A DNA stretch of 64,000 nt from Pararhizobium sp. (GTDB taxonomy: Bacteria; Pseudomonadota; Alphaproteobacteria; Rhizobiales; Rhizobiaceae): positions 620,001-684,000 of the forward strand of contig CP051237.1 in NCBI GenBank assembly GCA_017794825.1. The letters run 5' to 3'. A model generated the notes under the pieces. That model made no database searches and was not told the DNA's origin. It worked only from the letters and a program-made list of their open reading frames with translations. Positions within the stretch are counted from its first letter, which is position 1, and every line of letters begins with the position of its first letter. Both the position numbers and the translations under genes were made by a program. Below are positions 7,176 through 48,196 of this stretch, piece by piece.

Positions 7176-8648
7176 ATGAGCGTGCCCGTCCGCAAGCAGA
7201 TCCGCTTCATCCTCAATGACCGGCCGATCAGTCTCGACGATATCGCTCCCGACTTCACACTTCTCGACTTTCTTCGCATCGATCAGAGGCTGACCGGCAC
7301 GAAAGAAGGCTGCGCAGAAGGCGATTGCGGCGCCTGCACCGTGCTTGTGGGACGGCTCGGAACCGATGGCCTTGTCTATGAAACCGTCAACGCCTGCATC
7401 CGTTTTGTCGGCTCGCTCGACGCCTGTCATGTCGTCACGATCGAGCATCTGGCCGCCGCCGACGGCGCGCTTCATCCTGTCCAGCAGGCGATGGTCGACC
7501 GGCATGGGTCGCAATGCGGCTTCTGTACGCCAGGAATCGTCATGTCGCTCTACGATCTGTGGCTCGAAACGAACGACGCCACGCCGGCGGCGATAGAAAA
7601 GGCGCTGCAGGGCAATTTGTGTCGTTGCACAGGATACGAGACCATCATCGAGGCGGCGAAAGCGGCGAGCGCCGTGGCAAGCAACGACGATCGCCTCGTC
7701 GCCGGCAGGACGGCCATGAAAGCCAGGCTGAGCGAATTGCGCGATGGCGCCCGCGTCGAAATCGAAACCGGCAAGGGAACGATGTTCGTCCCGGCTACCG
7801 TGGACGATCTCGCGGATATTCTGGAAGCCAATCCCGAGGCGACGATCGTCGCCGGCTCGACCGATGTCGGCCTGTGGGTCACCAAGCAGTTCCGGTCGAT
7901 CGCGCCTGTGGTCTTCATCAACAATCTCGTCGAGCTCAAGCAGATCTCGGAAACGGCCGAAGGGCTGACGCTCGGCGCCGGTGCAAGCTACAGCGACGCC
8001 TTCGAGGCGATCGCGGGACGCTATCCGACAATGCGCGGCTTCTGGGAGCGCATCGGCGGCGAGCAGGTGCGCAACATGGGCACCGTCGGCGGCAATATCG
8101 CCAACGGGTCTCCGATCGGCGACACCCCTCCGCCGCTCATTGCGCTTTCAGCGCAAGTGACGCTGCGCAAGGGCGCCGGCGAACGCACTCTACCGCTTGA
8201 GGACTTCTTCATCGATTATGGAAAACAGGATCGCCAGCCCGGGGAATTTGTTTCGGCTGTCCATATCCCCGCGTTTGATGAATCACGAAAATTCGCCGCC
8301 TACAAGATTTCCAAGCGTCGCGACGAGGATATCTCCGCTGTCTGCGGCGCCTTCAACGTCAAACTGGAGTCCGGTCGCGTGGCCGACATATGCATTGCAT
8401 TCGGTGGCATGGCGGCGACTCCGAAACGGGCGTCCGCCGTCGAGGGGGCTCTCCTGAACCAGCCCTGGAGCGAAGAGACGATACTGGCCGCCATGGAGAA
8501 ATTCGCGGAAGACTATCAGCCGCTGACAGACTGGCGCGCAACCGCCGACTACCGGTTGCTCGTCGCCAGGAACCTCCTCAGGCGCTTTTTCATGGAAACG
8601 CAGGGCGAGACGGTCCGGATCGAACGTTTCGAGATGGCGGGAGCGTGA
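7176..8648 (+). CDS. xdhA: Xanthine dehydrogenase small subunit XdhA
   Basis: Iron-sulfur and FAD subunit of XdhAB, which oxidises hypoxanthine and xanthine to urate (EC 1.17.1.4). The N-terminal ferredoxin domain holds CAEGDCGAC (C46, C51, C54). The all-helical [2Fe-2S] domain has CGFCTPG and CRCTGYE. From about residue 195 an FAD domain follows with AGSTDVGLW and GTVGGNIANGSPIGDTPP. The 490-aa length is normal for a bipartite enzyme. ATG at 7176 follows GGAGAAAGT. It is first in xdhA-xdhB-xdhC, with xdhB beginning two bases after its stop. Confidence 0.96.
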   Translation: MSVPVRKQIRFILNDRPISLDDIAPDFTLLDFLRIDQRLTGTKEGCAEGDCGACTVLVGRLGTDGLVYETVNACIRFVGSLDACHVVTIEHLAAADGALHPVQQAMVDRHGSQCGFCTPGIVMSLYDLWLETNDATPAAIEKALQGNLCRCTGYETIIEAAKAASAVASNDDRLVAGRTAMKARLSELRDGARVEIETGKGTMFVPATVDDLADILEANPEATIVAGSTDVGLWVTKQFRSIAPVVFINNLVELKQISETAEGLTLGAGASYSDAFEAIAGRYPTMRGFWERIGGEQVRNMGTVGGNIANGSPIGDTPPPLIALSAQVTLRKGAGERTLPLEDFFIDYGKQDRQPGEFVSAVHIPAFDESRKFAAYKISKRRDEDISAVCGAFNVKLESGRVADICIAFGGMAATPKRASAVEGALLNQPWSEETILAAMEKFAEDYQPLTDWRATADYRLLVARNLLRRFFMETQGETVRIERFEMAGA

Positions 8649-8650
8649 CG

Positions 8651-10978
8651 ATGGAACAGTCAACGGCTTCAAGTATCGAGATTTCAGGCGGCGTGCACAC
8701 GCCGCGCCGTCACGATTCCGCGCACAAGCATGTCACCGGATCGGCCGAATACACCGATGATATCGGCGAACCCGCCGGCACGCTGCACGGGGCGCTGGGC
8801 GGAACCGATCGGGCGCATGCGAAGATCATTTCCGTCAATCTCGACAAGGTGCGCAGCGCGCCCGGCGTGGTGGATGTTCTCACAGCAGCCGATGTGCCGG
8901 GCGTCAACGATCTCAGCCCCACGGGGCTCAACGATGAACCGATCCTGATTACGGACACCTGTCTCTACCACGGACAGCCGCTCTTCGCCGTCATTGCCAC
9001 GACCCGCGACGCCGCCCGCAGGGCGGCGACCCTGGCCGAGATAGAATACGAGGACCTCCCCTTCGAGACCGACGTCGTCGGCGCAATGAACGCCGGATTC
9101 AAGCACGTCACCGATCCGCTGAAACTGCAATACGGCGACGTCGACACGGCGCTCGCCAATGGCACAAACCGCTTTTCAGGCGAAATGCGCGTCGGCGGAC
9201 AGGATCATTTCTATCTCGAAGGCCAGATCTCGCTGGTCGTGCCCGGCGAGGACGACGAAGTCACCGTCTACGCATCGACCCAGCATCCGAGCGAGATCCA
9301 GCACATGGTGTCGCACGCGCTCGGGACCTCTTCCAACGCCGTCACGGTCAATGTCCGTCGCATGGGCGGCGGCTTCGGCGGCAAGGAAACCCAGGGCAAC
9401 ATCTTTGCCGCCATCGCCGCGATCGCGGCCAAACGGCTCAAGCGACCCGTCAAGATGAGGCCAGACCGCGACGAGGACATGACCGTCACCGGCAAGCGGC
9501 ATGATTTCCACATCGCCTACGACGTCGCCTACGACAATGACGGTCGGATCGAAGCGCTCGAGGCGACCTTCGCCGCCCGCTGCGGCTTCTCCTCCGACCT
9601 GTCGGGACCGGTGACCGACCGCGCGCTCTTCCATGTCGACAATTGCTATTTCCTGCCGAACACTCGCCTGACGTCCCGGCCGATGATGACCAATACGGTG
9701 TCGAACACCGCCTTTCGCGGTTTCGGCGGCCCGCAGGGCATGATCGGGGGCGAACGGGTGATCGAGGAAATCGCCTACAGGCTGGGCAAGGATCCGCTGG
9801 AGATCCGCCGGGTCAATTTCTACGACGAGGACAAGCGCAATGTCACGCCCTACCACCAGAAGGTGGAGGACAACATCATCGCGCGCATCGTCGACGAGAT
9901 CGAGGAAAGCTCCGATTACCAGGCGCGGCGCAAGGCGGTCATCGACTTCAACCGGACGAGCAGGATCATCCGAAAGGGGATCGCGCTCACGCCCGTCAAG
10001 TTCGGCATTTCCTTCACCGCCACTTTCTTCAACCAGGCGGGCGCTCTCGTCCATGTCTACCAGGACGGTTCGGTCCATCTGAACCACGGCGGCACCGAGA
10101 TGGGCCAGGGTCTCAACACCAAAGTGGCGCAGGTCGTCGCCGACGAGTTCCAGATCGATCTGGAAAATGTGCGCATCACCGCGACCCACACCGGCAAGGT
10201 GCCGAACACGTCGGCGACCGCCGCTTCTTCCGGCTCCGACCTCAACGGCATGGCCGCCGCCAACGCCGCGCAACAGATCAAGACGCGGCTGGTGATCTTC
10301 GCCTCCGAGCACTATGGCGTGCCGGAGGAACAAATCGATTTCGTGCCGAACCACATGCGTGTCGGCAATCAGCTGATCCCGTTCGCGGACATGATCAAGC
10401 AGGCTTATATGGCGCGCGTTCAGCTGTCGGCCGCCGGTTTCTACAAAACGCCGAAAATTCACTGGGACCGCGACAAGGGCCAGGGCCGGCCGTTCTTCTA
10501 TTTCGCCTACGGCGCGTCGGTCTCCGAGGTCAGCATCGACACCCTGACCGGCGAGTATCATGTCGATCGCGTCGACATCCTCCACGACGTCGGCAAGTCG
10601 CTCAATCCGGCGATCGATCTCGGCCAGGTTCAGGGCGGCTTCGTACAAGGGATGGGCTGGCTGACCACCGAAGAGCTGTGGTGGGACGACAAGGGCCGGC
10701 TGCGCACCCACGCGCCGTCGACCTACAAGATACCGCTCGCTTCCGACAAGCCGAAGATCTTCAATGTGACGCTCGCCCAGTGGTCGACCAATCGCGAGCG
10801 CACGATCCGGCGCTCCAAGGCGGTCGGCGAACCGCCTTTCATGCTCGCCAACTCCGTTCTCGAAGCCCTGTCGATGGCTGTCGCAAGCGTGGCCGATTAC
10901 CGCGTCTGCCCCTGCCTCGACGCGCCGGCGACGCCCGAACGCATTCTCATGGCTGTCGAGCGGATGAAGAAGGCATGA
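8651..10978 (+). CDS. xdhB: Xanthine dehydrogenase large (molybdopterin) subunit XdhB
   Basis: Binds the molybdenum cofactor and the purine substrate; electrons pass to the XdhA clusters. The protein is 775 aa. Visible family motifs are GGGFGGKETQ (cofactor-binding loop), NTAFRGFGGPQG, HGGTEMGQGLNTK and, near the C-terminus, AVGEPPFMLA, which contains the conserved active-site Glu. ATG at 8651 lies just after the xdhA TGA. The open frame extends upstream into xdhA, but that part is not XdhB-like. xdhC starts 3 bases after its stop. Confidence 0.96.
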   Translation: MEQSTASSIEISGGVHTPRRHDSAHKHVTGSAEYTDDIGEPAGTLHGALGGTDRAHAKIISVNLDKVRSAPGVVDVLTAADVPGVNDLSPTGLNDEPILITDTCLYHGQPLFAVIATTRDAARRAATLAEIEYEDLPFETDVVGAMNAGFKHVTDPLKLQYGDVDTALANGTNRFSGEMRVGGQDHFYLEGQISLVVPGEDDEVTVYASTQHPSEIQHMVSHALGTSSNAVTVNVRRMGGGFGGKETQGNIFAAIAAIAAKRLKRPVKMRPDRDEDMTVTGKRHDFHIAYDVAYDNDGRIEALEATFAARCGFSSDLSGPVTDRALFHVDNCYFLPNTRLTSRPMMTNTVSNTAFRGFGGPQGMIGGERVIEEIAYRLGKDPLEIRRVNFYDEDKRNVTPYHQKVEDNIIARIVDEIEESSDYQARRKAVIDFNRTSRIIRKGIALTPVKFGISFTATFFNQAGALVHVYQDGSVHLNHGGTEMGQGLNTKVAQVVADEFQIDLENVRITATHTGKVPNTSATAASSGSDLNGMAAANAAQQIKTRLVIFASEHYGVPEEQIDFVPNHMRVGNQLIPFADMIKQAYMARVQLSAAGFYKTPKIHWDRDKGQGRPFFYFAYGASVSEVSIDTLTGEYHVDRVDILHDVGKSLNPAIDLGQVQGGFVQGMGWLTTEELWWDDKGRLRTHAPSTYKIPLASDKPKIFNVTLAQWSTNRERTIRRSKAVGEPPFMLANSVLEALSMAVASVADYRVCPCLDAPATPERILMAVERMKKA

Positions 10979-10981
10979 ACC

Positions 10982-11791
10982 ATGGCAAGGCCGCTCTCGC
11001 CGCTTGAACTGCTCGACGCCGGCGAGCCGCTGATCAGGATCACAGTCGCCAATGCGCGCGGCTCTACGCCACGCGAAAAAGGCACGTGGATGCTGGTTTC
11101 AGCGGGGGCCCAGGCCGGCACCATCGGCGGCGGTCAGCTGGAGCTCGCAGGCGTCGAGAAAGCTCGCGAACTGCTGGCAGCCGGAGAGAATGCGGCGCAT
11201 CTCGATATCCCGCTCGGACCCGAAATCGGCCAGTGCTGCGGCGGCAACGTCGCGCTGTCCTTCGACAGGCTGGACGACGCAAGCCATGACGCGCTGAGAG
11301 CCGAATGCCGCAGCCTCGAGGACGCCCTGCCCCGCGTCTATGTCTTCGGGGCCGGACATGTCGGCAAGGCGCTCGCCGAGGCGCTTGCCCTGTTGCCCGT
11401 CCGCACCGTGCTTGTCGAAAGTCGCAAAGCCGAACTGGACGGCGCGACAGACAGGGTGGAGAAACGCCTCACCGCTGTGCCGGAGAGCGTCATCGCCGAC
11501 GCGCCTGCCGGCTCAGCCTATGTGACGATGACCCATGAACATTCTCAGGATTTCATCATCGTCGAACAGGCGTTGCAGCGGCTGGACGCCCCTTATGTCG
11601 GCATGATCGGCTCGAAAACCAAGCTCGCCCAGTTTCGAAGCTGGCTGAAAAAGGAAAGCGCCGACGTCGATCCGGCGCGTCTCGTCTGCCCGATCGGCGG
11701 CACGAAGGTTCGGGACAAACGGCCGGCCGTAATCGCAGCGCTTGTCGCCGCCGAACTGATGACCGTCCTTGGTGGTCCTTCTCAGTCGTAA
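10982..11791 (+). CDS. xdhC: XdhC, molybdenum-cofactor maturation protein
   Basis: Family role: binds and sulfurates molybdenum cofactor and hands it to XdhB; it is not part of the mature enzyme. The 269-aa protein has the XdhC/CoxI N-terminal domain (ANARGSTPREKGTWMLV, GTIGGGQLE, GPEIGQCCGGNV) and a Rossmann-like C-terminal half starting with VFGAGHVGKAL. It is the third gene of the xdh operon. The next 147 bp to the hydrolase gene contain an operator described separately and no gene. Confidence 0.93.
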   Translation: MARPLSPLELLDAGEPLIRITVANARGSTPREKGTWMLVSAGAQAGTIGGGQLELAGVEKARELLAAGENAAHLDIPLGPEIGQCCGGNVALSFDRLDDASHDALRAECRSLEDALPRVYVFGAGHVGKALAEALALLPVRTVLVESRKAELDGATDRVEKRLTAVPESVIADAPAGSAYVTMTHEHSQDFIIVEQALQRLDAPYVGMIGSKTKLAQFRSWLKKESADVDPARLVCPIGGTKVRDKRPAVIAALVAAELMTVLGGPSQS

Positions 11792-11844
11792 AACCTGCTC
11801 CTTGTATAGATAGAAGCTTGACGAAGGCCCGGTTCCTCTTTAGC

Positions 11845-11881
11845 TTTTCGATATGTGCAAATATTTTCGTTATGCGAAAAT
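11845..11881 (+). promoter_or_regulatory. Three-half-site operator upstream of hydrolase/TRAP operon
   Basis: A perfect inverted repeat ATTTTCG-N5-CGAAAAT lies at 11863-11881, ending 57 bases before the hydrolase ATG. A further TTTTCG half-site at 11845-11850 sits exactly 19 bp upstream of the left arm. The same three-part arrangement occurs at 17889-17928 before the LigM-like gene. The dyad contains a T-N11-A core, as LysR-type sites do, but the regulator is not proven. Confidence 0.55.
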
Positions 11882-11938
11882 TATAACCGCATGGGACGAG
11901 GATAAGATTTACATGTTAATTGCGACGCCGAAAAACCC

Positions 11939-12820
11939 ATGCTGAAAGTTACGCTGCTGGGAACCGGCATTCCGAACCCAAGCGTTCAGGCTTTCGGCAC
12001 GTCTACCCTTATCGAAGCGGGCGACCAACGGGTCATGATCGATTGCGGTCGAGGCGCTGTTATCCGGCTGTCGCAGCTTGGACTGCCGGTCGGATATTGC
12101 GACACGATCATCCTGTCGCATTACCATTCGGACCACTATAGCGGCATATTCGATCTGCTGATGTCTGGCACCATCCGGCAGGCATGGGCGGGCAGAGGCG
12201 GTCCCCTGCATGTCTACGGTCCGGAAGGCGTGCAACACCTCGCCGAAGGCGCCTGGCTTGCGACAAAACCCGATCGCGACATTCGCGTCGCCGACCATGA
12301 GATCGAGCCTGAAGACATGCGCATTATACCTCATGTCTACGAGGAGGGCGTCGTCTATGACCGCGGCGGACTGAAGATTATCGCCATTCTGGTCGACCAC
12401 GGGGACAACATACCGACGGCGTTCGGTTTTCGCGTCGAATATGGTGATCATGTCTTCGTGCACTCCCACGACACCCGCTACAACGAAAACCTCATTTCTC
12501 AGGCCCATGGCGCGGACGTTTTCATTCACGAAGTCGCCGCAGCGCGGCAATCGACCCTCGACAACCATCCAAAGGTCAAGATCGCGATCGACCACCATTC
12601 TTCGCCGACCGACGTCGGCCGCGTGTTCGCGCAGACCAGGCCAAAGCTTGCGATGCTGACGCACCTTGCGCTGCTGCCGCCGGATCCGCCGAGCATCGAC
12701 GGTCTGCTCGCCGAAATCGGCGAGGAATATGAAGGCGTCGTCCTGATCGCAGAGGATCTGATGACGATACGCATCGGCAAGGGGATATCCATTGAACCTT
12801 TCCGGCATCCCGGAAAATGA
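11939..12820 (+). CDS. Metallo-beta-lactamase-fold hydrolase, RNase Z/arylsulfatase-like
   Basis: A 293-aa cytoplasmic protein with no signal peptide. The metal motif HYHSDHYSG (about residues 61-69) is the HxHxDH signature of the fold. HSHDTRYNEN and a late IDHHSS supply further ligands. It resembles the RNase Z/arylsulfatase branch, in which small-molecule hydrolases are common. It precedes the TAXI receptor and TRAP permease and probably heads their operon, so it likely acts on the imported compound. The substrate is unknown. Confidence 0.75.
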   Translation: MLKVTLLGTGIPNPSVQAFGTSTLIEAGDQRVMIDCGRGAVIRLSQLGLPVGYCDTIILSHYHSDHYSGIFDLLMSGTIRQAWAGRGGPLHVYGPEGVQHLAEGAWLATKPDRDIRVADHEIEPEDMRIIPHVYEEGVVYDRGGLKIIAILVDHGDNIPTAFGFRVEYGDHVFVHSHDTRYNENLISQAHGADVFIHEVAAARQSTLDNHPKVKIAIDHHSSPTDVGRVFAQTRPKLAMLTHLALLPPDPPSIDGLLAEIGEEYEGVVLIAEDLMTIRIGKGISIEPFRHPGK

Positions 12821-12876
12821 CTCACCAACTCCGGCGCGCGATGCGTCGCCGGCCTATCGCAAGGGAGGAACAAGCG

Positions 12877-13923
12877 ATGATGAAGACCACCACCGCCCTG
12901 ATTGCAGGCATGTCCCTGGTAACGGCAAGCGCCGCTATCGCGCAGGAAAATCTTACAGCCATGACATCGGCGCCCGGCACCGCAGTGCATCTGACGATCT
13001 CGCACCTGGCGGAGATTGCAGCAGACCGCGGCATCGCCGACATCCAGATCACGCTCGGACAGACAGGCGTCAACCAGACGCAGGCGGTGGCCGAAGGCAG
13101 AGCCGATGTCGGCAACTGCCCGTTCATCCTTCCATTCTTGCTGTCGAAAGGCGCCGGACCCTACGCCGCGCTCGGCGCGGAAAAAGGCGCGGAGCTCGCA
13201 GCCAACCTCCGCGTGCTCTATCCATACTCCTTTGGCGCCTATACGCTTTACGCCTATGACGCGGCCGGCGTCGGCGGCTGGGATGATCTGGCCGGAAAAA
13301 CCATCCTCGACGGTCCGCCGCGCGGCGCGGCCACTGCCGAAGCCCGCAGTCTCATCCAGGTCGTGACCGGCCTGAAGCCGGACGAGGACTACAAGACGAT
13401 CGAAAGCGACTGGCCGCAAATGGTGACGACCATCACCGAAGGATCTTCCGATGTCGCCCTCCTGCCTGAGTTCATTCCCAGCGACAGGCCGCTGCAGGCC
13501 CTGTCGGCTGGCAAGATGACGTTCTGGTCGATCCCGAAGGATATCTTCGAGAGCGAACCGATGCAGAAGCTGCTGTCGTCTCCGGGAACCGCTCCGTTCA
13601 TCCTCACGATGGAGCAGATGCAGACGCTTGGCGACAACGCTGAGATTGTTTCCGAAGACGGTCTGTTCCGCACGAGGGGCTCGGTCGGCGGCAATTGCGT
13701 CAACGCATCGATGAGCGACGACCTCGCCTATGAATTGACGAAAGCCCATCTCGAAACGCTCGATGCGCTCTATGCCAAGGCGCCATATGCGACGAATATC
13801 GGGCTGGAAGAACTGGATCCGCAAAAATCGGGCATGTGCGGACTGAACCCGATCAAATATCACGCCGGGGCCATTCGCGCCTGGGAGGAAGCGGGTTACA
13901 CTGTGCCGGATTGCGCAAAATAG
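12877..13923 (+). CDS. TAXI-family TRAP transporter solute receptor
   Basis: Periplasmic binding protein of a TRAP importer. The 348-aa product begins with a clear signal peptide (MMKTTTALIAGMSLVTASAA, then IAQE). The mature part has the TAXI layout, including GRADVGNCPFI near residue 77 and an internal domain with DLAGKTILDGPPRGAA. The start at 12877 is set by a strong AGGGAGGA site; an in-frame ATG 60 bases earlier would add a charged leader and is rejected. A hairpin and then the fused permease follow. The ligand is unknown. Confidence 0.88.
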   Translation: MMKTTTALIAGMSLVTASAAIAQENLTAMTSAPGTAVHLTISHLAEIAADRGIADIQITLGQTGVNQTQAVAEGRADVGNCPFILPFLLSKGAGPYAALGAEKGAELAANLRVLYPYSFGAYTLYAYDAAGVGGWDDLAGKTILDGPPRGAATAEARSLIQVVTGLKPDEDYKTIESDWPQMVTTITEGSSDVALLPEFIPSDRPLQALSAGKMTFWSIPKDIFESEPMQKLLSSPGTAPFILTMEQMQTLGDNAEIVSEDGLFRTRGSVGGNCVNASMSDDLAYELTKAHLETLDALYAKAPYATNIGLEELDPQKSGMCGLNPIKYHAGAIRAWEEAGYTVPDCAK

Positions 13924-13939
13924 ACTATTGAATATCGCG

Positions 13940-13962
13940 CCGGCCGCCAGCATCGCGGCCGG
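13940..13962 (+). other. GC-rich hairpin between TRAP receptor and permease genes
   Basis: Perfect 8-bp arms CCGGCCGC / GCGGCCGG around a 7-base loop, 17 bases after the receptor stop and 31 bases before the permease ATG. Such hairpins downstream of binding-protein genes often protect the upstream message from decay or attenuate read-through, giving more receptor than permease. That role is inferred. No T-tract follows. Confidence 0.4.
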
Positions 13963-13992
13963 TTGCGCCAACCGGACACCCACCCGACAGTC

Positions 13993-16341
13993 ATGACCGA
14001 AACCGACGACAGCCAATCCACCAGTGTGTTCGCGCGCAGGGTTCTCTACGCGCTCGCCCTGATGCTGGTTGTCGCGGGGATGATCAACTCCACGCCGTCA
14101 ATCCCGGGTTGGGACGAATTCTGGCGCGGCGTGACCGGAATGCCCGACCTCCTGGTGCGGCGCTTTCCTTACGAATATTTCTACCCCCTCGCCTTCGCCT
14201 GGATGATGATCATTGTCGTCTTGTCCAGTTCGATCTGGCGCAGATGGCGCGACCGATCAGCAGGCTGGCGCATGCTGGGCCTTGCAATGGATATCGCGCT
14301 GCTGGTCGCTGCGCTGGCGATCGCTGTCTCCTATCTCATCGAGAATGAAGCGATCTGCATGATCGACGTCATCACCGGCGAGCGCGCTGCATTGATGGAA
14401 AGCGCGCTGAAGGCCGAGAAGGAACTCGCCACATTGATGGGCCTGCCGGAGCCCACAAGCGTCGACAACCCGCTGTGTCAGGCCGACACCGGCGTCTGGC
14501 TCGTCTGGATCGTCGGCTTTTCCGTTCTCGTCTTTCTCGCCTACAATGTGGAGATCTGGGGCTTTTCGCTGGTTCTGGTGTCCATCGTCATGGCGGCCTA
14601 CGCTATCGGCACCGTGCTGATCTGGTACTTCTTCGGCCCCGAGGGCATGAACAAATACGCGATCACCGTTCTTGGCGGCGAGCCGCGAACGCTGCTCGAC
14701 GGGCGCTACCGCATACATGATCTGCTGATCAACCAGGGCTCCGGCCTGCTCGGGCAGTTCCTCCACATCATGCTGAATACCGTGTTCCCCTACATCGTTC
14801 TCGGCGCCCTGCTTGCTGTTTCAGCCGGAGGCAACACGCTGATCAAGCTCGCCTTCGTGTGGACGCGACGGCTGCGCGGCGGCCCGGCCCATGCGGCCAT
14901 CGTCGCATCGGCGCTGTTCGGCACCACCACGGGAACGCCGGTGGTCAATGTGCTCGGCACCGGCGTGCTCACCATCCCGATGATGATCAAGCGGGGCTTT
15001 TCCAAGGTCTATGCGGGCGGCATCGAGGCGGCCGCCTCCTCCGGCGGACAGATCATGCCCCCGATCATGGGCATCGCCGCCTTCGTGCTTGCCGCAATGA
15101 CCGGCGTGCCCTATCGCGAGGTGGCGATCGCCGCCGCCATTCCGGCCGTCGCCTATTTCTTCTGCATGTTCCTGTCCGTGCTCTTCCAGTCGCGCAAGCA
15201 GGGCATCGAGGCGGTGGGCGAAATTCCGGACGACATGAAGCTGACGCGCAAGGACTGGACGCATCTGCTCCAGATCGCGCTGCCGATCCTGCTGATCGTC
15301 GTGCTGTTGCTCATCCCGAAAGACGCCATCGGCTGCGACCCGATCAGTCGGCTGCTCGGCGCGGAGGTCATCCTGTCCGGCGGGTCCTGTCGGGCGGAAA
15401 GCCTGCCGTGGATCATGCAGCTCGTGCAGAATTCGGCCGGAGACGCGGGCAGCGTCGGATGGTGGGCCTCGATCCTGCTGATGGGTTTGCTCTTCATGGA
15501 TTCCGAGTTTCGCCGCAAGCCGCGCCTTCTGGCCGACGCCCTGTCGAACGCCGGCGTCACTATTTCCACGCTCTATCTGATGTTCCTCGCGGTTTCGGTC
15601 ATCGATATCAGCCTCAACCTGACCGGGCTCGCAAATTTCGTCGCGCTGGATGTGCTTGGCTGGCTGCGCGCGCTCGACCTCGGCGGCAGCGGTCCCGGCG
15701 TTTTCCAGCTTGCTGCGCTTCTGGTGACAATGCTTCTGGCGATCCTGCTGGGCATGGGTATGCCCGCCGTTCCCGCCTACATCAACGCCGCGCTCCTGAT
15801 GGGGCCGCTTCTCGTCGGGCTCGGCATTTCCCTGTTCACGGCGCACATGTTCATTTTCTACTTCGCCTGCGCCAGCGCCATCACGCCGCCCGTCGCCGTG
15901 GCCTCTTACGCGGCGTCCACGATCACCCGCGCCGACCCGATCGCCACGAGTTTCTCGGCCGTCCGTTCCGGCATCGTGATGTTCGTGATCCCGTTCGTCT
16001 TCGCATTCTATCCGGAATTTCTGCTGGTTCCGGCGGCAGTGCTCAATCCCGACACGGCCGCCGGCGCGCCGCAGTTCCTGCCGGGCTATGACGGCGAAAT
16101 CCATCTCGGCGTTCTGCTGCTCCTGCTTCTTCGGCTGGGTTTGGCGCTTTATCTTCTGGCCAGCGCGCTCGCGCGCTTCGATCGCACGAAACTCGCCTTG
16201 TGGGAAGCCGCCGCGCGTCTCGCCCTTGCGACGCTGATCATGATCCCCTCTCCGTTCGTATTCATACCGGCGGCAATCGGCGCCATACTCCTGATGGCAG
16301 GTCACACCATCAGTTCACGCCGCAGCGCCGTCCCGGCCTGA
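13993..16341 (+). CDS. TRAP transporter fused permease (4TM/12TM)
   Basis: A 782-aa inner-membrane protein that joins the small (DctQ-like) and large (DctM-like) TRAP subunits, as is usual for TAXI systems. The first ~220 residues hold the small-subunit helices. From about residue 270 the DctM part carries ASALFGTTTGTPVVNVLG and AAASSGGQIMPPIMG, and near residue 590 LLGMGMPAVPAYINAAL and ACASAITPPVAVASYAAS. ATG at 13993 is chosen over a TTG 30 bases upstream. It converges with the LigM-like gene across a terminator. Confidence 0.9.
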   Translation: MTETDDSQSTSVFARRVLYALALMLVVAGMINSTPSIPGWDEFWRGVTGMPDLLVRRFPYEYFYPLAFAWMMIIVVLSSSIWRRWRDRSAGWRMLGLAMDIALLVAALAIAVSYLIENEAICMIDVITGERAALMESALKAEKELATLMGLPEPTSVDNPLCQADTGVWLVWIVGFSVLVFLAYNVEIWGFSLVLVSIVMAAYAIGTVLIWYFFGPEGMNKYAITVLGGEPRTLLDGRYRIHDLLINQGSGLLGQFLHIMLNTVFPYIVLGALLAVSAGGNTLIKLAFVWTRRLRGGPAHAAIVASALFGTTTGTPVVNVLGTGVLTIPMMIKRGFSKVYAGGIEAAASSGGQIMPPIMGIAAFVLAAMTGVPYREVAIAAAIPAVAYFFCMFLSVLFQSRKQGIEAVGEIPDDMKLTRKDWTHLLQIALPILLIVVLLLIPKDAIGCDPISRLLGAEVILSGGSCRAESLPWIMQLVQNSAGDAGSVGWWASILLMGLLFMDSEFRRKPRLLADALSNAGVTISTLYLMFLAVSVIDISLNLTGLANFVALDVLGWLRALDLGGSGPGVFQLAALLVTMLLAILLGMGMPAVPAYINAALLMGPLLVGLGISLFTAHMFIFYFACASAITPPVAVASYAASTITRADPIATSFSAVRSGIVMFVIPFVFAFYPEFLLVPAAVLNPDTAAGAPQFLPGYDGEIHLGVLLLLLLRLGLALYLLASALARFDRTKLALWEAAARLALATLIMIPSPFVFIPAAIGAILLMAGHTISSRRSAVPA

Positions 16342-16357
16342 GACATTCCCGTCAAAC

Positions 16358-16388
16358 AAAAAGGGCGTCAGCCCTTCGGCCGACGCCC
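16358..16388 (-). terminator. Intrinsic terminator of the LigM-like gene
   Basis: On the minus strand a GC-rich stem GGGCGTC / GACGCCC (16388-16382 with 16369-16363), with an inner GGC/GCC pairing and a short loop, is followed by TTTTTGTTTG. It lies 26 bases after the stop of the leftward demethylase gene, between two convergent transcription units. Confidence 0.75.
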
Positions 16389-16414
16389 GATAAATTGTTC
16401 GATATTGGCTTGGA

Positions 16415-17815
16415 TCAGGCTGCGACTGTCTTGTCGCCGGCCTTGCTCTTGATCGACTTGTCGAAATAGGGAACCGGCGCAACGGTCGCGCGGATTTCGC
16501 GCACTTCGTGGTCTTCCACAGTGCGTCGGCGCGAGTTTGGCTCGCCCCAAAGCAGGGCGACTTCCGTGCCCGGCTCCGCATGCTCCAAGTCGATCAACGC
16601 AGTCGAGAGCATCGAACCCGCATTGGACGAATAGGACATCCAGTTGGATATGCCGATGCCCTTGCCGTTGCGCATCACCGCGTCGGCCTGGAACGACGAA
16701 TACATCGGAACTGGCAGCGAGATGAACTTGGCGCGCGGACCGTCGTTTGTCAGCGACTGGCGCAGAATGTCGAATACATCCGTATTGTCCCAGACCAGCG
16801 TCACCTTCTTGCGCCGAGGGTTCTCTTTCATGCGGACAAGCGCGTCGCGGCCGATGAAGTCGTGATCGAGATTGACGAAATTGCCGTACCCGACTTCGAA
16901 AGGATCAACATAGTAGTCGGAGATCTCGGAGGACACGAAACTGCCGCCGAGCGATCCGGCCGCCTCGAAGGAGCGCGCCGGTATCCACTCACGATAGGAC
17001 TGCATGAAGTCGCCTTCGTAGATCGCCGGCAGCGGCCGCGGCATCCATCCGGATTCCTGCGCCGCGGTGCCGTAGGTGACGGAGCCCGCCTTGCGCAGGT
17101 CGTAGGCTTCGCCCGCCCTTTCCACGACCTCGCGCACCGCCTGCTGATCGTCCCACGGACCGTAGACCTCGAAGCCGGGCTGACCGGCCATGCCATGACG
17201 CAGGGCGCGCACGGTCTTGCCGCCGATCTTGAACTCGCCGATGTGGAAGAACTTGATGTCTGGCAGCGTCCCGTCGGTCACTTCCTGCATCAGCGCAAGC
17301 GCATGCGGTCCCTGGAGCTGGAAGCGGTAAACATCGCGGCGCTCGCGCGGAACGATCATGTTTTCGTCGCGCTCGAAAGTAACGTCATAATCGGTCTTCT
17401 CGGCGTTGAACTGAACCCAGTTCGCGGCGGTCGGCGGTCCGACGACGCGCAGGAAATCCTCTTCTTCGCGAAACACCACCGCATCGGAAATCATCTTGCC
17501 GTCCGGACCGGTCATGATCACCTGCTTGCCGCGCATCGGCGCGAAGGTGTCGAACCGGTTGGTTCCAAGCTCCGACAGAAACGCCATCACATCCGGTCCC
17601 CGGAGGCGCATTTCAGTCATGTGGTAGGACTGTTCGAGGAGCGCGACGCTTTCCTTCCACGCACGCTGCTCGTCGCGCCAGTTGGTGAATTCCGGCGGTA
17701 TCCCCGGGAAGATGGTTGTGCCCATGTTCGATGTGCGCAGAAGGTCGATCGGACCTCCCGCCGCATCAATGGCCTGTTGCAGCGTCTTCGGTGTGGGGAT
17801 GCCGGTGCCTGTCAT
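16415..17815 (-). CDS. LigM/DesA-like tetrahydrofolate-dependent O-demethylase (GcvT fold)
   Basis: A 466-aa aminomethyltransferase-fold protein. By length and by motifs remembered from Sphingobium LigM (FPGIPPEFTNWR, RFQLQGPHA, LRHGMAGQPGFEVYGPWD, ESGWMPRPLPAIYEGD, GGSFVSSEISDYYVDP, GYGNFVNLDHDFIGRDAL) it belongs with vanillate and syringate O-demethylases. Those enzymes move a methyl group from a methoxyarene to tetrahydrofolate. The substrate here is unproven; other methylated compounds are possible. ATG at 17815 follows GGGAGGA. It stands alone on the minus strand, but shares an operator with the hydrolase/TRAP operon, which suggests that operon imports its substrate or precursor. Confidence 0.8.
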   Translation of the reverse strand: MTGTGIPTPKTLQQAIDAAGGPIDLLRTSNMGTTIFPGIPPEFTNWRDEQRAWKESVALLEQSYHMTEMRLRGPDVMAFLSELGTNRFDTFAPMRGKQVIMTGPDGKMISDAVVFREEEDFLRVVGPPTAANWVQFNAEKTDYDVTFERDENMIVPRERRDVYRFQLQGPHALALMQEVTDGTLPDIKFFHIGEFKIGGKTVRALRHGMAGQPGFEVYGPWDDQQAVREVVERAGEAYDLRKAGSVTYGTAAQESGWMPRPLPAIYEGDFMQSYREWIPARSFEAAGSLGGSFVSSEISDYYVDPFEVGYGNFVNLDHDFIGRDALVRMKENPRRKKVTLVWDNTDVFDILRQSLTNDGPRAKFISLPVPMYSSFQADAVMRNGKGIGISNWMSYSSNAGSMLSTALIDLEHAEPGTEVALLWGEPNSRRRTVEDHEVREIRATVAPVPYFDKSIKSKAGDKTVAA

Positions 17816-17888
17816 GCTTATCCTCCCGATGGATATTTCACGTTGACGATGGAAGAGGTCCGAGACGGCGCCGCTTCAATTCTGCACA

Positions 17889-17928
17889 TTATTTTCGGAT
17901 AGCGAAAATAAATGCTCTATTCGAAAAT
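17889..17928 (-). promoter_or_regulatory. Three-half-site operator upstream of LigM-like gene
   Basis: A 23-bp perfect palindrome at 17889-17911 (arms TTATTTTCG and CGAAAATAA, 5-base spacer) plus another CGAAAAT at 17922-17928. Read toward the demethylase gene this gives ATTTTCG, then 19 bp on, ATTTTCG-N5-CGAAAAT, the same arrangement as at 11845-11881. The dyad ends 73 bases before the ATG. The remainder of the gap up to the LysR stop at 18005 shows nothing else. Confidence 0.6.
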
Positions 17929-18004
17929 TAATAGCTATTGCGCGAGCAGTCAACGCCTTTCAGCCCTATCAAGCGCCGGAATAGCCGAAAGCCGCCCTTT
18001 GGAG

Positions 18005-18925
18005 TCAATTCCCGTTCAGAGCTTCCAGAATCATCTTGTGGCATCGCGTGGTCATGAAATCGATGAACAGACGCAGCTTGGGATCCTGGAAATCCTTGTG
18101 CGGGTAGATGACGGCGAGCTGGGCCGGCACTGGAGGCGTATCCGTCAATACTTCGACGAGCCGACCCTCCTTGAGATGTCCCTGCACTTCGAAACGAGGA
18201 CGGTTCGCGATGCCGTGGCCTTCCAGCGCCCAGGCCAGAAGCACGTCGCCGTCATCGGAATCGAAGACGCCGCGCACATCGATCTTGCTGACGCCGTCCG
18301 GCGTCTGCAGCGTCCATGCATGTTCCGTCGAGCCGGGAAACCGCAAAAGCAGGCAATTGTGATTTCCCTTGGCCAGTTCGTCCGTCGTCGCCGGCGCGCC
18401 GTGTTTCTTCAGATAGGCCGGCGACGCGCAAAGCACCCGTTCGCACTCCATGATCGAACGCATGCGCAGGCTGGAGTCCTCGATCACGCCAAGGCGAAAT
18501 GCAAGGTCAATCCGTTCCTTGAGGATATCGACATTGTGGTCGGAAAGCCGCAGGCGAACCTCGATGTCGGGGTAAAGATCGTGAAACGCCGGTATGCCGG
18601 AGGCGATGTAACGACGGCCGAAACCAAGCGGCGCGCTGACCCGGATCGTCCCCTTGGGCTTGCCGGAGACCGAAGCGATAGAGGCTTCGGCGTCGTCCAC
18701 CGCCTGGATGATGCGGTTGGCGCCCTTGTAGAAGATCTGCCCGTGCTCGGTCGGCGTCAGCTGTCGCGTGGTGCGGTTGAAAAGGCGGACGCCGAGATAT
18801 TTCTCCAGCTCCTTCACGCGATTGCTGGCGACAGCGGGTGAAATGCGCATGTCGCGGCCTGCCGCGGAAAGGTTGCCGAGTTCGACGACGCGAACGAAGA
18901 CTTTTATATTTTCAAAGTATGACAT
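18005..18925 (-). CDS. LysR-family transcriptional regulator
   Basis: A 306-aa regulator. The N-terminal winged helix (residues 1-60) contains FVRVVELGNLSAAGRDM, ISPAVASNRVKELEKYLG and RLFNRTTRQLTPTEHG. The rest is a LysR-type effector domain, with VSAPLGFGRRYI near residue 96. It lies divergent from puuD with a dyad between them, so control of puuD-guaD is likely. It is also just upstream of the LigM-like gene, whose operator contains a LysR-like T-N11-A dyad, so either or both may be targets. Confidence 0.9.
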   Translation of the reverse strand: MSYFENIKVFVRVVELGNLSAAGRDMRISPAVASNRVKELEKYLGVRLFNRTTRQLTPTEHGQIFYKGANRIIQAVDDAEASIASVSGKPKGTIRVSAPLGFGRRYIASGIPAFHDLYPDIEVRLRLSDHNVDILKERIDLAFRLGVIEDSSLRMRSIMECERVLCASPAYLKKHGAPATTDELAKGNHNCLLLRFPGSTEHAWTLQTPDGVSKIDVRGVFDSDDGDVLLAWALEGHGIANRPRFEVQGHLKEGRLVEVLTDTPPVPAQLAVIYPHKDFQDPKLRLFIDFMTTRCHKMILEALNGN

Positions 18926-18956
18926 GGGTAGACCATATGATTTAGCAGTTTTTTTT

Positions 18957-18977
18957 GAAAGTCATCATTGGACTTTC
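18957..18977. promoter_or_regulatory. Dyad between lysR and puuD
   Basis: Perfect inverted repeat GAAAGTC / GACTTTC with a 7-base spacer, 32 bases upstream of the LysR start and 59 bases upstream of the puuD start. The size and position fit a LysR-type recognition site controlling both genes. It follows a run of eight T residues on the plus strand. Confidence 0.5.
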
Positions 18978-19036
18978 CTCTTTTCAACCGCGTCGCTGCC
19001 CTGCACAATAACCAAAACTGCCGGGGACGATATTTC

Positions 19037-20278
19037 ATGTACGATTTCGCCGTCGCCTGGGAATGGCTTGCTTTCGCTGCACGCTGGCTGCACGTGATCA
19101 CCGCCATTGCCTGGATCGGATCTTCCTTCTACTTCATCGCGCTCGATCTTGGGCTGCAGCATCGTCCAGGCCTGCCGGAAGGCGTTTCCGGAGAGGAATG
19201 GCAGGTGCATGGCGGTGGCTTCTACAATATGCGCAAATACCTGGTGGCGCCGCCGGAGATGCCCGAGCATCTGACGTGGTTCAAATGGGAGTCCTACACG
19301 ACATGGCTGTCCGGTTTCGCGATGCTGTGCATCGTCTATTACGCCGGCGCCGATCTTTACCTTATCGATCCCAATGTGATGGATATCTCGGTCCCTGTGG
19401 CGATCCTGATCTCGCTCGCCTCCATCGCATTCGGCTGGATCGCTTACGACTTCATCTGCAAGACGTTCGTCAACTACAGCAACACGATCCTGATGGTGTT
19501 CCTGTACGTTTTGCTGGTGGCCATGGCCTGGGCCTATACGGAGGTTTTCACAGGACGCGCCGCGCTCCTGCATCTGGGCGCATTCACCGCCACCATCATG
19601 AGCGCGAACGTCTTCTTCATCATTATCCCGAACCAGAAGATCGTGGTGGCTGACCTGATCGCGGGCAAGACGCCTGATCCGATCTACGGCAAGATCGCCA
19701 AGCAGCGTTCGACGCACAACAACTACCTGACCCTGCCGGTCATCTTCCTGATGCTGTCGAACCATTATCCGCTGGCCTTTGCGACGGAATACAACTGGAT
19801 CATCGCCTCCCTCGTCTTCCTGATGGGCGTCACCATCCGCCACTGGTTCAACACGCGTCACGCGCGCCAGGGCAGCCCGACCTGGACCTGGCTGGTCACG
19901 GTGATCATCTTCATCGTCATCATCTGGCTGTCCTCATCACCGAAGCTGAGCGACATGGACGCAGAAGGCGAGACTTCGGTTCCGGCCACCTATCAGCGTT
20001 TTGCTGACAATGCGCATTTCCCGGCGGTGAAAGACATTGTGCTCTCGCGCTGCTCCATGTGCCATTCAAACGAACCGGTCTGGCAGGGCGTCAACTTCCC
20101 GCCCAAGGGCGTTCTTCTGGAAAGCGACGCCGAAATCGCCGCCCATGCGCGCGAGATCTATTTTCAGGCCGGCCGCACCAACGCCATGCCTCCGGCCAAT
20201 GTCACCGAAATTGCACCGGACGAGCGCGAAATCCTCGTCGCATGGTTCGAGACATCGGTGCGCGGCGACAGGGAATAG
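19037..20278 (+). CDS. puuD: Membrane-bound urate oxidase PuuD with cytochrome c domain
   Basis: Oxidises urate to 5-hydroxyisourate at the inner membrane, passing electrons to the respiratory chain. The 413-aa protein has several membrane helices (first segment AARWLHVITAIAWIGSSFYF) in the urate hydroxylase domain. From about residue 320 there is a soluble C-terminal domain with the c-type heme motif CSMCH. ATG at 19037 is chosen because the upstream extension lacks a family match and crosses the promoter. It is followed by guaD after two bases. No soluble uricase is seen; PuuD fills that role. Confidence 0.93.
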   Translation: MYDFAVAWEWLAFAARWLHVITAIAWIGSSFYFIALDLGLQHRPGLPEGVSGEEWQVHGGGFYNMRKYLVAPPEMPEHLTWFKWESYTTWLSGFAMLCIVYYAGADLYLIDPNVMDISVPVAILISLASIAFGWIAYDFICKTFVNYSNTILMVFLYVLLVAMAWAYTEVFTGRAALLHLGAFTATIMSANVFFIIIPNQKIVVADLIAGKTPDPIYGKIAKQRSTHNNYLTLPVIFLMLSNHYPLAFATEYNWIIASLVFLMGVTIRHWFNTRHARQGSPTWTWLVTVIIFIVIIWLSSSPKLSDMDAEGETSVPATYQRFADNAHFPAVKDIVLSRCSMCHSNEPVWQGVNFPPKGVLLESDAEIAAHAREIYFQAGRTNAMPPANVTEIAPDEREILVAWFETSVRGDRE

Positions 20279-20280
20279 AC

Positions 20281-21597
20281 GTGACCGAAAAACTCATTCG
20301 CGCTCGCCTGCTGTCGTTCTGGCGGCAGCCAGCGTCGGCCGACGACGCCGACGCCTACGCCTATCACGAAGACGGGGCGCTGCTGATCCGCGACGGTCTG
20401 ATCGCAGCAGCCGGCGATCATGCGGACGTCGCCGGGAGCGCCTCGCCCGAAACGCCTGTCGTCGACCACCGGCCGCATATCGTGATGCCGGGTTTTATCG
20501 ACCCGCACATTCACCTGCCGCAGATGCAGGTCATCGGTTCCTATGCTCCGGCGCTGCTTGAATGGCTCAACACGTACGTCTTCGTCGAGGAACAGCGCTT
20601 CCGCGATCCGGCCCATGCGCAGCGCATCGCGGCGCGCTTTCTGGACGAACTCACCCGCCACGGCACCACGACCGCGGTCGCCTATTGCTCGGTGCACAAG
20701 GCGTCGGCCGAGGCGTTTTTCGCCGAAAGCCACCGCCGCAACATGCGCATGGTCGGCGGCAAGGTGATGATGGACCGCAACGCGCCGCCGGAACTACGCG
20801 ACACGCCTCAGAGCGGCTATGACGACACGAAGGCGATCATCGAACAATGGAACGGCGTCGGGCGGCAGCATGTCGCCATCACGCCGCGCTTCGCGATCAC
20901 CTCGACGCCGGAGCAGATGGAGATGGCGTCGGCGCTGCGGCGCGAATATCCCGACCTCCTGCTGCAGACGCATTTGTCGGAGAACCTGGCGGAGATCGAG
21001 TTCACCAAGGAACTCTATCCGTCCGCGAAGGACTATTTCGACGTCTACGAACATTACGGACTTGCCGGCGAAAAGAGCCTGTTCGGTCACTGCATACATT
21101 TGAGCGAGCGCGAGGCCGACGCCATGGCCGAAAGCGGCTCCGTCGCCGTGTTCTGCCCGACCTCGAACATGTTCCTCGGCAGCGGGCTCTTTCCGTTGAC
21201 GACGCTGGACGAGCGCGAGAAGCGCGTGCGCGTAGCCATTGCGACCGATGTCGGCGGCGGCACGAACTATTCGATGCTGAGGACAGCCGACGAGGGGTAC
21301 AAGGTCCTGCAATTGCAGGGGCAGAGAATGACGCCGCTCGAAAGTTTCTGGCGGCTGACGCGCGGCAATGCGGAAGCGCTGTCGCTTGATCAGCAGATCG
21401 GATCGCTGGAGCCCGGTCTCGACGCCGATCTCGTCGTGCTGGACGCCGCTGCCACCCCAGCCATGAAATTGCGCATGGAAACCGTGACAGATCTCTCGGA
21501 GGAACTGTTCCTGATGCAGACGCTCGGCGACGACCGCACGGTCGTCGAGACCTATATCGCCGGAGAACCGGCGAAAAGCGCTCTCGTCACGGAGTGA
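20281..21597 (+). CDS. guaD: Guanine deaminase GuaD
   Basis: Hydrolyses guanine to xanthine and ammonia (EC 3.5.4.3), feeding XdhAB and then PuuD. The amidohydrolase motif PGFIDPHIHLPQMQVIG lies near residue 75, LLQTHLSEN and FGHCIHLSE near 230-270, and ATDVGGGTNYSML near 320. These are typical of GuaD. The start is GTG at 20281, two bases after the puuD stop; the longer open frame overlaps puuD and is not homologous. Length is 438 aa, normal. Confidence 0.95.
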   Translation: MTEKLIRARLLSFWRQPASADDADAYAYHEDGALLIRDGLIAAAGDHADVAGSASPETPVVDHRPHIVMPGFIDPHIHLPQMQVIGSYAPALLEWLNTYVFVEEQRFRDPAHAQRIAARFLDELTRHGTTTAVAYCSVHKASAEAFFAESHRRNMRMVGGKVMMDRNAPPELRDTPQSGYDDTKAIIEQWNGVGRQHVAITPRFAITSTPEQMEMASALRREYPDLLLQTHLSENLAEIEFTKELYPSAKDYFDVYEHYGLAGEKSLFGHCIHLSEREADAMAESGSVAVFCPTSNMFLGSGLFPLTTLDEREKRVRVAIATDVGGGTNYSMLRTADEGYKVLQLQGQRMTPLESFWRLTRGNAEALSLDQQIGSLEPGLDADLVVLDAAATPAMKLRMETVTDLSEELFLMQTLGDDRTVVETYIAGEPAKSALVTE

Positions 21598-26387: not shown

Positions 26388-27146
26388 TCAGGTTTCTGGT
26401 TTTTCAAGAGGCGCGAAAGGCCGGCTTGCAAGGCCGGCCGCCGCCCTGTTGGCCGCATATTCGAGTTTCGACAGGATTTCGGTCTGGTTGATCTGGTGCC
26501 CGTTCAGAGCGGCGACCGAGATGACGTTCCTGATCTTTCCCGTTCCCTCAAGGTCAAGCTCCATGACGAAACGGGTGACATCGCCATCGTTGCGAACGAG
26601 CAGACCGGTTTCGCGGATTTTTTCGAACTCCCGCCAGTGCTCCTCGGGAACAGAAATTCCGAAAATTTCGCGATAGACCCGTTCGACGACCGCTTCGGGC
26701 TGATGCGCCAGAAGAAACTGGCCCATGCCATTCTGGATCCAGTCGGTGTTTGGAGCAAAGACGTCGATGAAATGATAGCAGTTGTGCAGTTCCGTCTTGG
26801 CGAGCAGTACGAAGCAATCCCCGTGATATGAGGCGATACAGGCCGAATGTCCGGTCTGGTAGGCAAGATTGGCCACGGTTCCCTGGACTTGCGCGCTCTG
26901 CAGGCCGAAGGACCGCAAGGCCTCACCAAGACGCAGGGTGCGGTAGCCAACGGTGTAGTTGCCGTTCGACTGGCGATGGCGAACCCAGTTCTCTTCCACG
27001 AGCATCTTGAGAAGCCGGGTCAGGGAAGCTCCGGACAGCTCCATCGCCTCGGCCAGATCGGAGAATGACCGCTCGTAGGGATACTCTGCAAGATGTTCGA
27101 TCAGCCGCATTGAGCGGCGACCGGCAGCCAGTGGATTAGCCATCAT
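26388..27146 (-). CDS. IclR-family regulator of the sulfatase locus
   Basis: A 252-aa regulator. The N-terminal winged helix covers about residues 8-70 (RSMRLIEHLAEYP, FSDLAEAMELSGASLTRLLK) and an IclR effector domain follows. ATG codons at 27146 and 27143 are both possible. It is divergent from the second sulfatase and heads the leftward ABC/sulfatase operon, so it probably controls both sides through the 115-bp gap, where an inverted repeat is visible. Confidence 0.87.
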   Translation of the reverse strand: MMANPLAAGRRSMRLIEHLAEYPYERSFSDLAEAMELSGASLTRLLKMLVEENWVRHRQSNGNYTVGYRTLRLGEALRSFGLQSAQVQGTVANLAYQTGHSACIASYHGDCFVLLAKTELHNCYHFIDVFAPNTDWIQNGMGQFLLAHQPEAVVERVYREIFGISVPEEHWREFEKIRETGLLVRNDGDVTRFVMELDLEGTGKIRNVISVAALNGHQINQTEILSKLEYAANRAAAGLASRPFAPLEKPET

Positions 27147-47533: not shown

Positions 47534-48196
47534 TCAATTCGGATGGTCTTCCTCAACAGAGCTTTGCATCATGAAATCGAGCCGGTACAGGCCTGTCGCC
47601 GTCACTGGCGGCGTGTCGCCCTCCGGCGATGTCAGGATGGCGTCGACGGCCGCCTTCAACGGCTCGGCCATTGGCCCCTCCGCCAGCAGGATTGCGCGTG
47701 AGGTCTCGTCCTTTTTGCCGCGCATGGCTGATTCCGCCGTTTCGAGCACCGCTTCGCCGCAACGCTCCAGGAGGTGCACTGCCGACAGGTTCTGCGACCG
47801 GATGAGCGCCGTGGCGACGGAGAGCGCCATGTCAGCGTCGCAGTCGAGCCGCAAAGCAAGCACGAAGCCGGCGACGCCATGGCCCGTGCTCGCGACCACC
47901 CGGCAGGGCGTCCGCGAGAAATCCGTGAAATGGGGCACGACCCGGCGCGTCCATTCCGTCGGGTCGTTCAGCCGGGAAAGATAGGTCTCGGAGAAAAGGA
48001 CGTCCGGCGTTTCAGTCTCGTAGAAATTGAAATACGCCGGTTGACCGTCCACCGCCGCATAGCGCCGCGCGCGCAGGAAGCCCGGAACAGTCAGCCGCTC
48101 TGGAATGTGCTCGTGCACATGCCATCGGACGAATTCCGCGTCGTGACCTTCCTCCATGCCGTTCCAGATGGCGAGCACGCCCTGTCCCGGGGTCAT
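47534..48196 (-). CDS. EthD/DUF4286-like protein
   Basis: A 220-aa protein. The first half has the pattern of EthD-like and DUF4286 dimeric alpha-beta barrels: GMEEGHDAEFVRWHVHEHIPER and GFLRARRYAAVDGQ. The second half is less distinct. It is the last gene of the leftward tct operon; its ATG overlaps the IclR stop by four bases. A role in modifying or cleaving the transported acid is possible but unproven. Confidence 0.55.
   Translation of the reverse strand: MTPGQGVLAIWNGMEEGHDAEFVRWHVHEHIPERLTVPGFLRARRYAAVDGQPAYFNFYETETPDVLFSETYLSRLNDPTEWTRRVVPHFTDFSRTPCRVVASTGHGVAGFVLALRLDCDADMALSVATALIRSQNLSAVHLLERCGEAVLETAESAMRGKKDETSRAILLAEGPMAEPLKAAVDAILTSPEGDTPPVTATGLYRLDFMMQSSVEEDHPN

Follow-up and report, generated by a model that had tools for sequence, protein, structure and literature searches.

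Tandem 19-bp dyads at two promoters of a Pararhizobium purine locus point to an IclR-family repressor encoded in trans

In 94 orthologous groups of IclR-family regulators, tandem palindromes have been described whose centres are 18-22 nucleotides (nt) apart, and the same work describes three-box sites for PcaU, PobR and HmgR and a subgroup consensus, WTTYCRYW3RYGRAAW (PMC8222616, Suvorova and Gelfand 2021). Here, we report on two sites of this kind in a 64,000-nt stretch of the Pararhizobium sp. genome (contig CP051237.1, positions 620,001 to 684,000; hereafter the window): site A, before an operon for a metallo-beta-lactamase (MBL)-fold hydrolase and a TAXI-type TRAP importer, and site B, before a LigM-like gene. 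We found that three promoters of this genome carry a tandem pair of 19-base-pair (bp) dyads, that one of them lies at an IclR-family gene, that this pairing recurs across genera and that a TTGAC motif stands at a near-fixed distance upstream. From sequence comparison, the window sites are very probably operators of a PcaR/PcaU/PobR-like IclR-family repressor encoded in trans at genome positions 1049073-1050020.

Described IclR-family systems and the window operators

The sites resemble the tandem and three-box set of PMC8222616 in their odd-length TTTCG-N5-CGAAA dyad of the WTT-11-AAW subgroup, in their external half-site and in their 19-nt centre spacing, which is within the published range. 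By eye, the full dyads of site A and of the third site fit the consensus at 17/17 positions, and that of site B at 16/17. IclR-family targets in that study include aromatic and TRAP (DctPQM) genes, as here. Unlike the operators that it describes, those reported here have a second dyad that is degenerate in one half-site and are fused to a promoter at a near-fixed register. Neither this IclR orthologous group nor the window targets were found in its main text; its supplementary tables, which lay outside our literature searches, may list the regulon. These searches returned no paper joining an IclR regulator with this gene set.

The closest described case of demethylase control is DesX of Sphingobium SYK-6, an IclR-type repressor of the syringate demethylase gene desA with syringate as major effector (PMC12314914). 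By description only, the two systems are alike in that desA encodes a tetrahydrofolate-dependent demethylase whose family the window LigM-like protein shares; the latter scores best against the DesA model. Unlike the IclR control that we propose for the LigM-like gene, ligM of SYK-6 has a MarR-type repressor, DesR (PMC12314914). PheR of Sphingobium sp. SHPJ-2, an IclR-family repressor of uptake and ring catabolism that protects positions -21 to +23 (PMC13273656), resembles the proposed system in covering the start site and differs in operator sequence, effector and genes. The tandem operator is thus of a known kind, and DesX is an earlier example of a DesA-type demethylase gene under IclR control.

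In the window, TTTTCG-N12-ATTTTCG-N5-CGAAAAT is exact at 11845-11881 (+ strand) and at 17927-17891 (- strand). An earlier, sequence-only reading had located these matches, and its account of their geometry was accurate: TTTTCG is repeated exactly 19 bp on, within ATTTTCG-N5-CGAAAAT, and both sites are oriented alike relative to the gene that follows. It had counted three half-sites. These three are present, but the count is too low, as each site consists of two abutting 19-bp dyads. Operator A (11844-11881, +) is made of CTTTTCG-N5-TGCAAAT at 11844-11862 and ATTTTCG-N5-CGAAAAT at 11863-11881; operator B (17891-17928, -) is made of ATTTTCG-N5-AGCATTT at 17928-17910 and ATTTTCG-N5-CGAAAAT at 17909-17891, read on the - strand. 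In each, the fourth half-site is degenerate, reading TGCAAAT at site A and AGCATTT at site B.

Under a first-order Markov model of the window, exact matches to the full pattern are expected 4e-7 times per window and 4e-5 times per genome, and the exact 19-bp dyad, found twice in the window, 0.0006 times. The relaxed dyad is at background, both in the window with 3 mismatches allowed (4 matches versus 3.1 in shuffles) and in the whole genome at up to 2 mismatches (25 places versus about 29 expected); three 2-mismatch dyads (loci L006-L008) were inspected by eye. Only the full pattern was therefore used for genome comparison.

Distribution of the operator and its pairing with an IclR gene

The sequence-only reading had proposed a scan of the full genome. 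Over 6,060,643 bases, the full pattern occurs exactly in two places and with at most 1 mismatch in three, where 0.0017 are expected. Relaxing the search to 3 mismatches yields the same three places only (0.58 expected), the extra matches being merely shifted or opposite-strand readings of them. The third site, at 1048943-1048980, is about 0.41 Mb from the window sites and has the same tandem arrangement (ATTTTCGGCAAGTGCAAAT and AATTTCGCTATGCGAAAAT); at all three sites, the dyad centres are 19 nt apart and one dyad of the pair is degenerate. This third site lies between an IclR-family gene and a divergent operon encoding a citryl-CoA-lyase-like protein (CoA, coenzyme A), a CaiB-type CoA transferase and a DctP-type TRAP importer. 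Downstream of the IclR gene are an amidohydrolase gene and a LigB-type extradiol dioxygenase gene. As the third operator copy adjoins the IclR gene, it points to IclR as the regulator.

This gene (G000:C1:1049073-1050020, equal to L005:9073-10020) has a start codon preceded by a GGAGG site, and its product matches HTH_IclR (51.7 bits) and IclR_C (111 bits), both above the Pfam cut-off. The PcaR/PcaU/PobR subfamily is its best NCBIfam match; unlike the beta-ketoadipate set of that subfamily, the linked genes here encode a LigB-type dioxygenase, a CaiB-type protein and a citryl-CoA-lyase-like protein.

We showed that operator and regulator co-occur in the order. Among 397 genomes, the pattern (at most 2 mismatches) was found in 11, the IclR protein (E ≤1e-60) in 12, and both in 8 (Fisher 5.6e-12; 1.3e-10 minus our own genome). 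Three genomes have the motif without the protein (G069, G212, G230) and four the protein without the motif at this threshold (G224, G172, G122, G151); in G224 (IclR identity 78%), the motif is present with 4 mismatches. In the family, 13/151 genomes contain the pattern at the same threshold. Besides the three genomes of the genus, hits at IclR loci were found in G816 (contig C34), G843, G877 and G917, and the hits of the remaining six genomes are not at IclR loci (for one, G915, the surroundings of the hit were not fetched, but the genome has no IclR match).

At the level of loci, the operator stands beside the IclR gene in 18 counted cases. In all six named loci with an IclR identity of at least 72% (Flavimaribacter sediminis, Roseibium marinum, strain BW5, strain W31, a Roseicyclus and a Devosia metagenome-assembled genome), it occurs with 1-4 mismatches between the IclR gene and the lyase-like gene. 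Two plasmid loci examined later, from Martelella mediterranea (4 mismatches) and Rhizobium sp. SSA_523 (0 mismatches), fit both the pairing and the register rule described below, which had been formed before their examination. Linkage of the operator to the regulator gene thus extends across species in these 18 + 2 loci, with G903 as a degraded exception.

In 11 loci of more distant IclR relatives (42-50% identity), the operator is changed or absent. Eight of them, with 42-46% identity, are seven sphingomonad loci (Sphingomonas, Blastomonas), all showing a TTCG-N5-CGAA tandem of related form with 4-5 mismatches, and a Nocardiopsis locus with no tandem at up to 5 mismatches; in the three sphingomonad IclR proteins that were aligned, the recognition helix appears by eye to be somewhat altered. 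G122 and G151 (47%) have changed dyads with 5-6 mismatches. G392 (50%) has two tandems, with 1 and 3 mismatches, located 0.8 and 3.3 kilobases (kb) from the IclR gene and preceded by TTGAC 31 and 28 nt upstream. These 11 loci were excluded from the register count.

Within the genus, both window sites are present in 3/3 genomes. At site A, the half-sites are invariant across the three congeners and the central N5 spacers vary (3/10 positions); at site B, one change is seen, in the degenerate half-site. Flavimaribacter sediminis also carries the IclR site, so that two of the three congeners have all three sites.

Promoter register and choice of regulator

A TTGAC motif precedes the first base of TTTTCG by 26-28 nt at 18/18 IclR-linked sites and at 6/6 window-type sites (A and B in the three congeneric genomes), compared with 0/9 motif hits away from IclR. 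Nineteen IclR-linked loci were listed, of which G903 was dropped as too degraded, and duplicate genomes (G237 = L033, G397 = G403) were counted once. The nine hits away from IclR leave out two hits of G212, one of G915 and one of G816 (on C32), and two of them (G903 on C1, G237 on C65) are from genomes with IclR elsewhere.

For the MBL/TAXI-TRAP operon, this register designates TTGACG (11818-11823, +) as the probable -35 element, with its TTGAC preceding the first half-site by 27 nt, and TAGCTT (11841-11846, +), 17 nt farther on and overlapping the first half-site, as the probable -10. For the LigM-like gene, the corresponding probable elements are TTGACT (17948-17953, -) and TAATTT (17925-17930, -). 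In our own genome, a 17-nt spacer leads to a TA(A/G)NTT-type -10 at all three sites; some relatives do not have TAnnnT exactly 17 nt on. The operator would then cover about -9 to +28 relative to the predicted start, and its position over the -10 and start region suggests repression. Downstream, the distance from operator end to lyase start codon at 20 IclR-linked sites (the 18 and the two plasmid loci) is 4-15 nt in 17, including G172, placed by eye, and 36 and 48 nt in two; no lyase start codon was found in G183.

An opposing promoter, TTG[CT]CG-N17-TAnnnT, with its -35 inside the operator, is recognizable at 14/18 IclR-linked sites and at neither window site. The frequent occurrence of the spacer GGCAAG at IclR loci, and its absence from A and B, would thereby be accounted for. 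Since the regulator's own probable -35 is inside the operator on the other strand, IclR would repress itself.

Altogether, we can propose the following mechanism. Two IclR dimers would occupy both dyads on the same DNA face, and bound IclR would mask the -10 region and the start site and prevent initiation until an aromatic effector releases it. Co-induction of the LigM-like gene and the MBL/TAXI-TRAP operon with the ring-cleavage/CoA pathway would follow; IclR may also repress its own gene.

Other explanations of the two sites were weighed against this one. The sequence-only reading had favoured the LysR-type protein encoded at 18005-18925 (-), whose gene and site B are some 80 bp apart, and had pointed to a T-N11-A core. 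Such a core is formally present, but it is uninformative, since a dyad of this kind contains T-N11-A anyway. LysR orthologs (E ≤1e-90) gave 80 matches in 79/151 genomes of the family, and we examined the neighbourhoods of 30 of these matches, 27 outside the genus and three in the congeners. In 30/30 loci, puuD (urate hydroxylase) is divergent from LysR. The operator lies within 3 mismatches at the LysR loci of the three congeners only; none of the 27 others has it at up to 5 mismatches, their best matches having at least 6. Instead, most of these loci outside the genus share, by eye, another recurrent element in the LysR-puuD gap, which is TGACTTTCAAAAAA-like. Moreover, G917 (83% complete) has IclR and the operator, yet no LysR match at E 1e-90, and at the third site the nearest regulator is IclR, another LysR gene being about 6 kb off. 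That the LysR protein binds both sites is highly improbable; its gene appears to be a bystander, the partner of divergent puuD. Chance similarity with no shared regulator at all could be argued from the background behaviour of the relaxed dyad. The excess of the full pattern in the genome scan, the kept half-sites beside changing spacers at site A and the common TTGAC register make it a negligible possibility. Thus, while its regulator is replaced, the earlier idea of one regulon gains support at the sequence level from sites far beyond chance that are kept in three congeneric genomes and have a promoter register common with the third site.

The remaining alternatives concern the IclR family itself. 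PcaU and PobR act as activators, and the regulator is closest to the PcaR/PcaU/PobR subfamily, so the same protein could be an activator whose operator recruits polymerase. PcaU, PobR and HmgR also possess an external third box (PMC8222616), and VanR1 is an IclR-type protein that activates a demethylase gene (PMC12314914). Against this, the operator extends from the probable -10 into the leader, to within the short distance of the lyase start given above, a repressor-like position comparable to the footprint of PheR (PMC13273656); activation seems unlikely. An IclR paralog could also use the window sites, since HTH_IclR has 41 matches in the genome and two of these (48841-48990 and 26976-27116) fall within the window. 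Neither window paralog has an operator copy beside it in the window and genome scans, while the gene at 1049073 has one, here and in relatives. This comparison covered the two window genes and not the remaining paralogs one by one, and we regard use of the sites by another paralog as very unlikely. As a separate observation, the window has at 48193-49437 an IclR-family gene beside genes that by eye are TctABC-type-transporter-like, with no operator copy adjoining.

Several observations count against control of the window sites by the IclR protein encoded at 1049073 as a repressor. The trans link from IclR to these sites rests on one genus, and the third congener (79% complete) has both window sites while its IclR site and IclR were undetected. 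The footprint in the genus is modest, as the spacers of site B are as unchanged as its half-sites. Among relatives, G172 (IclR identity 65%) has a degraded tandem, placed by eye, in which 6/20 fixed positions differ, and G903 (about 69%) has a degraded operator only, with 6-7 mismatches. The -10 hexamers are weak, including that of the MBL/TAXI-TRAP operon, and a generic sigma-70 scan found no promoter in 11700-18100; the promoter assignment therefore rests on the conserved register. The best model of the regulator, TIGR02431, scores 253.5 bits, below its curated cut-off of 284.75, and for this reason we file the protein as IclR-family, PcaR/PcaU/PobR-like, and not as a member of the subfamily. 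Finally, with 41 HTH_IclR matches in the genome, a paralog could bind.

The 6-kb unit and its setting in the purine locus

The operon behind operator A starts with the MBL-fold hydrolase gene (11939-12820, +; Pfam Lactamase_B_2), which shares 4 bp with the gene of the TAXI-type TRAP solute-binding protein (12817-13923, +). The latter protein matches NMT1_3 above the cut-off and TIGR02122 with 49 bits, below the cut-off of 84. The TRAP fused permease gene follows (13963-16341, +; TIGR02123, 324 bits, above the cut-off of 320.65). Between the convergent units, a terminator-like hairpin is found at 16363-16388 (-), in a region where the number of hairpins is not above that of shuffles (6 versus 5.4).

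The gene behind operator B (16415-17815, -) encodes a LigM/DesA-like protein of the GCV_T family (Pfam GCV_T) that is related to the DesA/LigM O-demethylases and is a probable tetrahydrofolate-dependent demethylase. It shares the GCV_T family and a near full-length match with DesA and LigM (NF047633, NF047885) and is below both curated cut-offs (DesA, 543 of 800 bits; LigM, 472 of 580 bits). The genome encodes eight LigM/DesA-like GCV_T proteins, the window one included; together with its 41 HTH_IclR matches, this makes a large complement of demethylase-like and IclR genes. A search of 385 genomes of the class for close relatives (E ≤1e-150) returned our own genome only, and among 11 other distinct genomes a close ortholog was found in Flavimaribacter only (97%). 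Relatives on plasmids reach up to 59% identity; in one Agrobacterium plasmid record the surroundings of such a gene were examined, with no operator at up to 5 mismatches. A LigM-like gene by the IclR cluster of G816 was considered as support and rejected: its identity to the window gene is only 43%, and it is nearer to another paralog.

Purine-degradation genes (xanthine dehydrogenase set, urate hydroxylase, guanine deaminase and LysR) extend over window positions 7176-21597 and are split by this 6-kb operator-bearing unit. The MBL-TAXI-TRAP and LigM-like units lie in the interval from the end of the xanthine dehydrogenase genes (11791) to the end of LysR (18005). Outside the genus, xdhC is within 1.5 kb on LysR's other side in 23/27 loci, compared with 0/3 congeners. 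Because xdhC usually borders LysR outside the genus, the unit of about 6 kb, both operators included, was probably inserted into an older purine locus between xdhC and LysR. In the LysR-puuD gap (window 18926-19036; L125-L151), the TGACTTTCAAAAAA-like element recurs before LysR in most of the orthologous loci examined, by eye, and may be part of LysR's own operator or promoter.

Other gene contents were noted in IclR clusters. A methionine-synthase-like protein (by eye, a relative of the cobalamin-independent enzyme) is encoded in or near the cluster of two genera (L107, L160), and intradiol dioxygenases (Pfam) in those of G100 and G172. On an Agrobacterium deltaense plasmid (L174), an IS66 element separates a related IclR gene (52% identity) from the citryl-CoA lyase gene.

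Mechanistically, the proposed control has nothing unusual for the IclR family. The novelty lies in its members, since sequence evidence joins a LigM-like demethylase and an MBL/TAXI-TRAP operon to an uncharacterised aromatic/CoA pathway. A plausible but very probably wrong candidate, the neighbouring LysR, is replaced by an IclR protein named by comparison and encoded 0.41 Mb away, and the small regulon predicted from it would include a ring-cleavage dioxygenase, a CoA transferase, a citryl-CoA-lyase-like enzyme, two TRAP importers, the MBL hydrolase and the LigM-like demethylase. As a tentative and rather doubtful extension, the operator might mark an undescribed catabolic route of marine and soil Alphaproteobacteria, with LigAB-type cleavage, CaiB CoA transfer and a citryl-CoA-lyase-like split, to which this genus would have added a LigM-like demethylase, an MBL hydrolase and a second TRAP importer through a 6-kb insertion carrying ready-made promoter-operator cassettes into the purine locus.

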